Shown here piece after piece: positions 58,981-64,000 of a DNA stretch of 64,000 nucleotides (its first letter is position 1; every line of letters starts with the position of its first letter). The stretch spans positions 1 through 64,000 of the forward strand of contig CALUSB010000006.1 of assembly GCA_944323335.1 (NCBI GenBank). Direction: 5' to 3'. The DNA comes from Candidatus Gastranaerophilales bacterium (GTDB lineage: Bacteria; Cyanobacteriota; Vampirovibrionia; Gastranaerophilales; Gastranaerophilaceae). The position numbers and the translations under genes are program-made. Under the pieces are notes generated by a model. The model saw only the letters and a program-made list of their open reading frames with translations. It ran no database searches and had not been told where the DNA came from.

Positions 58981-59046
58981 ACAATTTACAATGTTCAAAT
59001 TGATTGGTATGAAATATTATAGCAGTTTTTACTCATTTTTATAATA

Positions 59047-59074
59047 AAAAGACCCCTTGATAGGAGTCTTTTTA
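59047..59074. terminator. terminator hairpin (structured RNA; old tRNA-His terminator on the other strand)
   Basis: AAAAAGAC and GTCTTTTT flank a short G/C step (AAAAAGACCCC..GGAGTCTTTTT, one mismatch) around 59047-59074, ending in a T-run on the plus strand. On the minus strand it directly follows a duplicate of the tRNA-His 3' end, so it may be the original tRNA terminator. Confidence 0.65.
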
Positions 59075-59089
59075 TGGGGCGGGTGATGG
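59070..59089 (-). repeat. duplicate of tRNA-His 3' end (att-like direct repeat)
   Basis: The 20 nt TTTTATGGGGCGGGTGATGG here are identical to 59266-59285, which includes the last 15 nt of tRNA-His with CCA (minus strand CCATCACCCGCCCCA). Only this fragment of the tRNA is present. Confidence 0.85.
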
Positions 59090-59133
59090 CAATAGTATTG
59101 AATTTATTACGCTTACGCTATAAATTCATACTT

Positions 59134-59189
59134 TGCATCCATAAAATCACGAAATCAAAGATTTCGGATTTTTTGTAGGGTTCTCACCC
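59134..59189 (-). repeat. structured repeat core, copy A
   Basis: On the minus strand this 56-nt block matches 63929-63984 at 51 of 56 positions without gaps. It contains the perfect palindrome CGAAATC-TTT-GATTTCG and a GGGT-gaga-ACCC mini-hairpin whose partner copy keeps pairing through a G-T change. It is 3' of tRNA-His in the same orientation. Confidence 0.8.
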
Positions 59190-59234
59190 ACTTTACGGGT
59201 CTTTCGACCCGTGTGGGTTCTAACTCAACCAAAA

Positions 59235-59270
59235 TAAAATAGGTTACAGCTTTTGCTGTAACCTATTTTA
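59235..59270 (-). terminator. terminator of tRNA-His
   Basis: TAAAATAGGTTACAGC (59235-59250) and GCTGTAACCTATTTTA (59255-59270) form a perfect 16-bp stem with a TTTT (AAAA on the minus strand) loop immediately after the tRNA CCA end. Confidence 0.8.
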
Positions 59271-59347
59271 TGGGGCGGGTGATGGGGTTCGAACCCACGA
59301 ATATCGGAACCACAATCCGAGGCCTTAACCACTTGGCGACACCCGCC
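59271..59347 (-). tRNA. tRNA-His (anticodon GTG), CCA encoded
   Basis: On the minus strand the acceptor GGCGGGTG pairs with CACCCGCC, followed by encoded CCA. The extra 5' G (G-1) opposite C73 is the histidine identity element. The anticodon arm TCGGA-TTGTGGT-TCCGA gives GTG, and the T arm carries GTGGGTTCGAACCCC with the GGTTCGA loop. Confidence 0.97.
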
Positions 59348-63487: not shown

Positions 63488-63882
63488 GGGGACGTTGTGG
63501 TTTTGACAGGGTGCTTTATCAACCGTGATGCAGGCCGCGCGGATGTTGCGCGTTACCAACAATCAAAAAAATAAACGCTAATAACGTTGTAAAAGCTGAC
63601 TTTGCTCCCAGAGCAATCGCTGCATAGTTTGCGCGACAGCCACTCTATCTTGCCAGCTTGCCGCAATTTAGGGTCAATTATGCAAGCCTTAACACTTGTA
63701 GCTTGAGGCGCAGGCGTTTAAGTATTTAGCCTTGAGGGGTTGTCTTTCCTTATAAAAAAGACTTTGGCGCTTAATTTGGTTGAAGACATCTTTCCGATTT
63801 TGCGTTGAGATAAAAAGATTCTAAGCTTGTAGATTCGCGCTTGTTATCATTTTGGACGCGGGTTCGACTCCCGCCGTCTCCA
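63488..63882 (+). ncRNA. ssrA: tmRNA (one-piece)
   Basis: The 5' end GGGGACG pairs with CGTCTCC before discriminator A at 63882, and the 3' part carries a tRNA-like T arm (GCGGGTTCGACTCCCGC). The CCA end is not encoded. The tag reading frame starts at GCT 63577 and encodes ANNVVKADFAPRAIAA before TAG at 63625-63627. ANN at the start and a C-terminal Ala-Ala are typical of cyanobacterial tags. The RNA rescues stalled ribosomes with SmpB and marks proteins for degradation. Confidence 0.95.
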
Positions 63883-63928
63883 GTATTATTTTAATAAATT
63901 GAAGTCGTTGGAGTCAAAGCCGCGTAGC

Positions 63929-63984
63929 GGGTGAGAATCCTACGACAAATCCGAAATCTTTGATTTCGTGATTTGACGGATGCA
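63929..63984 (+). repeat. structured repeat core, copy B (downstream of tmRNA)
   Basis: This 56-nt block matches copy A (59134-59189, minus strand) at 51 of 56 positions. It contains CGAAATC-TTT-GATTTCG and GGGTgagaATCC, and is preceded by CCGC-gta-GCGG, which replaces the CCCAC/GTGGG arms of copy A while keeping them paired. It starts about 45 nt after the tmRNA 3' end in the same orientation, and similarity continues (AGCGTAA) to the window edge. Confidence 0.8.
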
Positions 63985-64000
63985 GTTAGCGTAAAATTTC

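Follow-up and report, generated by a model that had tools for sequence, protein, structure and literature searches.

Short hairpin-rich units flanking tRNA and tmRNA genes of Gastranaerophilales, possibly gene-free mobile cassettes

How does the same structured sequence come to lie behind two RNA genes of one bacterium, and what kind of element is it? The window, by which we mean the whole stretch of 64,000 nucleotides of Candidatus Gastranaerophilales bacterium analyzed here, comprises bases 1-64000 of a 66358-bp contig (C6), of which 2.4 kb remain beyond it. In this region a 56-nt core at 63929-63984 (+) is identical to 59134-59189 (-) at 51 of 56 positions, as an earlier note on this DNA had reported; the runner-up site for the 56-mer in the window shows 29 of 56 identities, and the whole genome holds no third copy at that similarity besides those of the tmRNA and the tRNA-His. 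By ARAGORN and Rfam, the tmRNA occupies 63488-63882 (+) and the tRNA-His 59271-59346 (-). Each repeat therefore immediately follows the 3' side of a gene whose end is tRNA-like, on the same strand as that gene, just as the note had described. Its prediction that a duplicate of the tmRNA 3' end should appear within 300 bp downstream was borne out: the sequence CGCCGTCTCCA recurs 161 bp behind the gene, and once more at 339 bp (3' ends at C6:64043 and C6:64221). The parts of the two loci are the following.

63488..63882 (+): tmRNA gene (ssrA), host gene of the array (ARAGORN; Rfam RF00023, 124.6 bits)
63883..64000 (+): first 118 of the 161 bp of a type-1 unit, which continues to C6:64043 and terminates in a copy of the tmRNA 3' end
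63910..63925 (+): foldback arm, identical at 14 of 16 nt to the tmRNA T arm in reverse complement
63927..63940 (+): direct T-arm-like copy GCGGGTGAGAATCC
63947..63974 (+): type-1 hairpin AAATCCGAAATC-TTT-GATTTCGTGATTT, the part common to type-1 units
59271..59346 (-): tRNA-His(GTG), host gene of the second array (ARAGORN, Rfam)
59075..59270 (-): type-1 unit of 196 bp behind tRNA-His
59234..59271 (-): 17-bp hairpin, terminator-like, immediately behind tRNA-His (inverted repeat I1)
59213..59223 (-): foldback arm of the tRNA-His unit, TTAGAACCCAC; for comparison, the His T arm in reverse complement is TTCGAACCCAC
59178..59191 (-): direct T-arm-like copy GTGGGTGAGAACCC of the tRNA-His unit
59144..59171 (-): hairpin of type 1 within the tRNA-His unit
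59075..59089 (-): displaced copy of the tRNA-His 3' end, CCATCACCCGCCCCA
59044..59075 (-): outer terminator-like hairpin behind tRNA-His (inverted repeat I2), probably the original terminator of this gene

The tRNA-His unit is closed on its outer side by TTTTATGGGGCGGGTGATGG, which repeats 20 bp of the end of the tRNA. Behind the type-1 unit of the tmRNA stands a second unit of 178 bp (C6:64044-64221), unrelated in sequence to type 1 and also closed by a copy of the tmRNA 3' end. With lengths of 161, 178 and 196 bp, these units are too short to hold an integrase gene.

In general, a unit is a non-coding, hairpin-rich segment of about 70-260 bp, whose outer side is closed by a copy of the host gene's last or first 10-20 nt. 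From the gene outwards, a 3' unit typically consists of a terminator, a foldback of the T arm, a direct T-arm-like copy, a module, and the displaced T-stem strand followed by the 3' strand of the acceptor. The typical 5' unit is the mirror image: the displaced 5' strands of the acceptor and of the D arm are followed by the module, the rest of the arm and a D-arm foldback, and then by a copy of the precursor leader and the intact gene. In tandem arrays the adjacent units are often identical. A fixed target-duplication length was sought among the displaced ends and none was found; these ends are mostly of 10-20 nt and variable, which argues against a fixed attachment core.

The foldback is specific to the host gene. 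In the 3' units (n=23) the reverse-complement score for the gene's own T arm was 215, against a mean of 153 for reassigned arms, and in the 5' units (n=35) the score for the own D arm was 340.5 against 218; none of 5000 permutations reached the observed value in either set, and the wrong-arm foldback test, applied to 3' and 5' units, gave no enrichment. The feature is not universal, given that a rank p of 0.05 or less versus other tRNAs was obtained in 14 of the 23 3' units and in 17 of the 35 5' units. In the relative G203, the foldback arm behind the tmRNA matches the reverse complement of the tmRNA T arm at 16 of 16 nt. This host specificity explains why the differences between the two copies had appeared to preserve pairing: the arms CCGC/GCGG and CCCAC/GTGGG are the T stems of the respective hosts (GCGGG/CCCGC in the tmRNA, GTGGG/CCCAC in the tRNA-His) and do not represent independent covariation. 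The preserved pairing of the outer arms thus mostly reflects copying of the host T arm. Double-sided changes that keep the pair do occur in 8 of 29 pairs of the type-1 alignment; in type 3, described below, the same is true of 12 of 30 predicted pairs.

Two functional readings of these parts were rejected. The motif GGTGAGAATCC was considered as a riboswitch or T-box T-loop, and it resembles a modified copy of the host T arm. Insulation, in which the foldback would mask the displaced tRNA end, was discarded on the tRNA-Val foldback of this genome, which reaches past the displaced part into sequence that only the intact gene has.

The occurrence of such units was surveyed in 130 tRNA/tmRNA genes from the genome of the window, G043, G187 and part of G110, and the survey was extended to 36 genes of G407 (another family of the same order), 40 of G345 (same class) and 41 of G311 (same phylum), excluding genes truncated by a contig end. 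A copy of the terminal 14 nt of the gene with 3 mismatches or fewer within 450 bp was counted, and some single hits may be due to chance, e.g. those at spacings of 288 and 419 bp without unit-like content. In the five genomes of the order 71 of 166 genes have a unit on one or both sides (18/32 in the genome of the window, 18/39 in G043, 6/38 in G187, 10/21 in G110 and 19/36 in G407). Copies of the last 14 nt occur downstream of 37 of the 166 genes (23/130 plus 14/36 in G407) and upstream of one, in G407; copies of the first 14 nt occur upstream of 49 (37/130 plus 12/36 in G407) and downstream of one. The swapped-end controls gave 0.002-0.017 per gene in these five genomes and 0.002-0.022 across all those surveyed. 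In G345, last-14-nt copies were found downstream of 6 of 40 genes and upstream of none, and first-14-nt copies upstream of 0 of 40 and downstream of one; in the cyanobacterial outgroup G311 the corresponding values were 0 of 41 and one, and 2 of 41 and one. From these counts we conclude that the order has units at both gene ends, its relative of the same class has few and these only at the 3' side, and the outgroup has none beyond chance.

The 3' units of G345 (L314, L353-L355, L357 and L367; 6 of 40 genes, no 5' units) are short and may represent an ancestral form. The involvement of 5' ends first became apparent in G095 (C2, L005, about 1800-2087): the tandem units that immediately precede tRNA-Val(GAC) there contain partial 5' tRNA copies as well as the D arm in reverse complement. 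In addition, contigs often start or stop at or near tRNA genes (C11, C19, C22 and C24 of the genome of the window, and several in other genomes), as is expected if near-identical tandem units break assemblies.

Each 3' unit is flanked by direct repeats of about 10-20 nt of the gene 3' end, and the 3' ends of tRNA and tmRNA genes are known integrase targets; on these grounds the units could be remnants of conventional integrase-borne islands or phages, as the earlier note had understood them. In that form this reading was not supported. The units are short, gene-free and often exact tandem repeats, they share sequence among different tRNAs, and they have mirror equivalents at the 5' ends of tRNA genes (the 37 of 130 genes mentioned above), which to our knowledge are rarely used by classical tRNA-targeting integrases. 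One exact type-1 and one exact type-3 pattern gave 0 matches each among the 2.9 million viral contigs of IMG/VR, and a tyrosine-recombinase box, sought with a crude regular expression, was seen in none of 1140 ORFs of at least 100 aa (0.85 Mb, half of the genome of the window). We consider an origin from such islands quite improbable.

The distribution of the units among relatives was analyzed in 288 genomes of the family. In a DNA search, 19 of them matched type 1 strongly (E 1e-9 or better), and 14 of these are of the same genus, counting the genome of the window; matches at E 0.01 or better occur in 59 of 288, and weak ones of 20-25 nt (E about 1e-3) were left out of the type-1 count. Seventeen of the displayed sites have an annotated neighbour, and at every one of them the unit immediately follows the 3' side of a tRNA-like gene on the same strand (tmRNA 8, tRNA-Ser 5, tRNA-His 3, tRNA-Asn 1), in line with the expectation that copies elsewhere would accompany genes of this kind. 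The type-3 unit, first met beside type 1, is present in 72 of 288 genomes and 19 of 41 genera. When 30 type-3 loci were fetched and annotated with ARAGORN, 22 were in arrays 3' of tmRNA, tRNA-Ala, Lys, Leu or Glu, seven had no tRNA-like gene and one had such a gene about 1 kb off. Behind tRNA-Ala (L037) and tRNA-Lys (L054), type 3 retains its own tmRNA-like end ATTATCTCCA and shares just CTCCA or CCA with the target. An exact type-3 21-mer was found in 29 stretches of a named genome collection, whose titles were only Ca. Gastranaerophilales, Ca. Galligastranaerophilus or 'uncultured bacterium' bins. Pieces resembling type 3 also occur in a 251-bp unit upstream of the tmRNA of G043 (L042), together with a copy of the tmRNA 5' end. 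In the genome of the window, hairpin ends of this kind (GACGTA ... ACAGGAGC) lie at places not obviously beside tRNA genes (L409 12353-12397, L412 15442-15597, L421 19380-19424 and L431 18453-18561).

A further module, M5, is formed by ACTCTGCCGA, a hairpin and GAGAGG. It is present in 271 of the 288 family genomes with up to 86 matches per genome, and the reversed-pattern control was empty in all but one of them; in a sample of the phylum, M5 was found in 110 of 254 genomes, all of this family except one that belongs to another family of the order. The orientation of 39 matches at 27 loci was recorded: upstream of the gene 17 are forward and 0 reversed, 12 are downstream, 7 reversed and 5 forward, and 10 have no tRNA near them on the locus. 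Of the five forward-downstream exceptions, two (L218, L229) can be seen to be 5' units belonging to the following gene, and the other three, which were not displayed singly, are presumed to be the same. The module therefore points at the gene from both sides, which a process acting at RNA 3' ends would not do.

This bears on the idea that a tRNA-linked RNA was reverse transcribed and joined beside the gene, in the manner of a bacterial SINE. Such a route would account for the closeness of the units to tRNA ends, and the foldback copies indeed read like complementary DNA of the tRNA; however, it conflicts with the two-sided symmetry and the opposite strand of the module, and with the end copies of the tRNA-Ser units, which stop at CTCCG without the CCA of the mature tRNA. 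No RNA-only feature such as an added CCA was seen in the units. We regard RNA-mediated insertion as very improbable.

A different role for RNA is suggested by the 3' units, which follow the gene directly and on its own strand: they could be functional structured RNAs cut from tRNA precursors, like the E. coli rtT RNA, acting for instance as decoys or regulators of tRNA maturation. The pair-keeping double changes of types 1 and 3 and a layout that resembles that of rtT agree with this proposal. In contrast, RF00391 (rtT) gave 0 matches up to E 10 in the genome of the window with a positive E. coli control, M5 is antisense in the 3' units, terminator-like hairpins stand ahead of many 3' units, and the presence of units is erratic inside one genus. 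Rfam scans of the unit-bearing loci, RF00391 included, placed no unit at the gathering score of any family; the hits below gathering, up to E 1, are at chance level, and those to tmRNA_permuted either overlap with the tmRNA or extend from its tail into the units. Wobble pairs are also rare in M5 and type 3. Counted over related sequences, without a formal test, the M5 stems contain 938 Watson-Crick, 16 GT, 6 AC and 86 GA/AG pairs, and those of type 3 contain 497 Watson-Crick, 7 GT and 3 AC; such nearly pure Watson-Crick stems are unusual for RNA and fit a DNA hairpin. The type-1 stems, folded on the sense strand, have 43 GT, mostly at few columns, versus 442 Watson-Crick pairs and no AC, a tolerance of wobble that could denote RNA. 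As an argument for DNA, the strand symmetry between the two sides of the gene outweighs the wobble counts, and we think it unlikely that the units are functional RNAs.

Turnover was followed at the tmRNA locus of one genus, where 15 genomes were searched and 12 had a match, in about eight configurations. Written as the types of their units, the arrays are 1-2 in G000, 3-1 in G203, 2 alone in G151 and 2-1 in G115 and G133; G036 has type 1 and part of type 3, G095 has type 1 and part of another type 1, G177 is a mosaic, G066 has type 3 up to the contig end, G254 has another unit and G191 is empty. The downstream flank is common to G000 and G203. In 81 of 91 pairs the type-3 units resemble each other more than the adjacent tmRNA genes do, and the same holds for the type-1 units in 17 of 21; the pairs that go the opposite way are mostly close relatives or partial units. 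For instance, G187 and G063 belong to different genera and their type-3 units are 99.4% identical, versus 48.1% for their tmRNA genes. Units thus seem to travel between genera, and horizontal movement gains support from units that are more alike than the genes they adjoin.

One insertion can be read at the locus L342 of G407 (C5), a clean snapshot of one element within another. Here two tandem 5' units precede tRNA-Leu(GAG), and one of them bears a precise 137-bp insertion in the M5 hairpin loop; by comparison with the neighbouring unit, and with the junction read by eye, at most 1 bp is duplicated. The CAAGAC module (GCGGATTTT ... AATCCAAGAC) is found inside this M5 loop of G407, and at the T-loop both in the type-2 unit of the genome of the window and at tRNA-Asp of G043; in the latter two the element sits in a T-arm copy at GTTCG|A without duplication.

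The main rival of our interpretation is a two-step origin. According to it, replication slippage or unequal exchange duplicates tRNA gene ends in tandem and leaves one intact gene, after which hairpin elements insert into the copies; these would be ordinary elements with a preference for T-arm or D-arm motifs, for which the useless copies are the only harmless site, and no special recombination at tRNA ends would be required. Some 5' units are in fact plain pseudo-tRNAs without a module (Arg-CCT of G110, 124 bp, twice), the CAAGAC element occupies T-arm copies with no duplication, and neighbouring tandem units are often identical. Nevertheless, this scheme leaves unexplained the locus-specific foldback arms, the position of type 3 directly behind CCA with its own tmRNA-like end, and the frequency of partial tRNA duplications in the order versus their near absence in G311. 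We hold a two-step origin possible, if rather doubtful.

The reading that we prefer, with a probability of about 0.5, is that the repeat of the window is one unit of a class of non-autonomous hairpin mobile cassettes that reside at the ends of tRNA and tmRNA genes and move at the level of DNA. The element would move as DNA, probably as a folded single strand, and a site-specific recombinase or a transposase of the HUH/Y1 type, supplied in trans, would recognize this strand and join the unit beside a tRNA-arm or CCA-end sequence. Since the end that is joined would bring along or duplicate the part of the gene that it displaces, the host gene would be preserved with its promoter leader and terminator; the resulting repeats of the gene end would then permit stacking, swapping and loss of units, and a benefit for the host need not be invoked. 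Several observations speak against this reading: no mobilizing enzyme emerged from the crude screen of half of the genome, the displaced ends vary in length, M5, type 3 and the CAAGAC element are not confined to tRNA genes, type 1 tolerates wobble, and part of the units have no clear foldback. More tentatively, and at less than even odds, we suggest that these cassettes are a new class of gene-free mobile DNA that uses both tRNA ends, is oriented to the gene, rebuilds the gene end together with its leader or terminator, carries a foldback tailored to the host, and depends on a machinery that reads the structure of tRNA genes rather than their sequence.

Several known systems share part of these features. 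The rtT repeats of the E. coli tyrT operon (RF00391) are tandem, non-coding units of roughly 178 bp behind a tRNA, each with a copy of the tRNA 3' end. The units described here are likewise tandem and, at the 3' side, each holds a tRNA 3' end; in contrast, they show no homology to rtT that we could find, occupy many tRNAs and both gene ends, and have shared modules, foldbacks and movement between genera. MITE, REP and PATE-type elements, moved by Y1/HUH enzymes, are similar in being short, non-coding and rich in hairpins, and insertion without target duplication, as in those elements, was found here in one clean case (L342, at most 1 bp), with which the type-2 core within a tmRNA T-arm copy agrees; the difference lies in the many copies tied to tRNA ends, the tandem arrangement and the locus-specific copy of the host end. 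Integron attC cassettes are also reorderable tandem units, with stem-loops that have unpaired bases on one strand only (GCCGA in M5), whereas our units have no coding gene and are bounded by tRNA ends. With tRNA-targeted integrative elements and tandem island arrays the 3' units have in common that the tRNA 3' end is directly repeated at the two borders and that the gene is intact, but they are gene-free, of about 70-260 bp, and have counterparts at the 5' side. The Rickettsia palindromic elements, likened here by their general description, are small palindromic insertions in one bacterial lineage and are not known to be linked with tRNA ends. In the portion of the literature available to our search no description of such tRNA-end arrays was found, and this class of gene-free tRNA-end cassettes is apparently undescribed so far.

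The best-known docking sites of mobile DNA are tRNA genes, which are used almost invariably at their 3' end and by elements of kilobase size that bring an integrase. In this order, elements of about 100 bp, frequently arranged in tandem, flank 71 of 166 surveyed tRNA/tmRNA genes on one or both sides; they turn over rapidly and are alike in different genera. They would allow the minimal requirements of DNA mobility to be tested and could point to a new kind of minimal mobile DNA. They may explain the frequent contig breaks at tRNA genes in such genomes, and they offer a natural series of precursor tRNAs with decoy ends, useful for studies of tRNA maturation.

M5, type 3 and the CAAGAC element are also found away from tRNA genes. 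In the high-copy genome G098, most of the displayed M5 copies are within a dispersed element of roughly 200-330 bp located away from tRNA genes. This element (5' TGTCTGAGTGGGACCTCGCTTGTA, 3' GTCGGGGTCAGTTGACTATATGAAA) occurs at many places (L247, L250, L253, L272 and others) with no link to tRNA genes, and the M5 hairpin and further optional blocks are present in some of its copies and absent from others; near one of its copies, a Guanidine-I riboswitch (91.8 bits) is located at L273 205-311.
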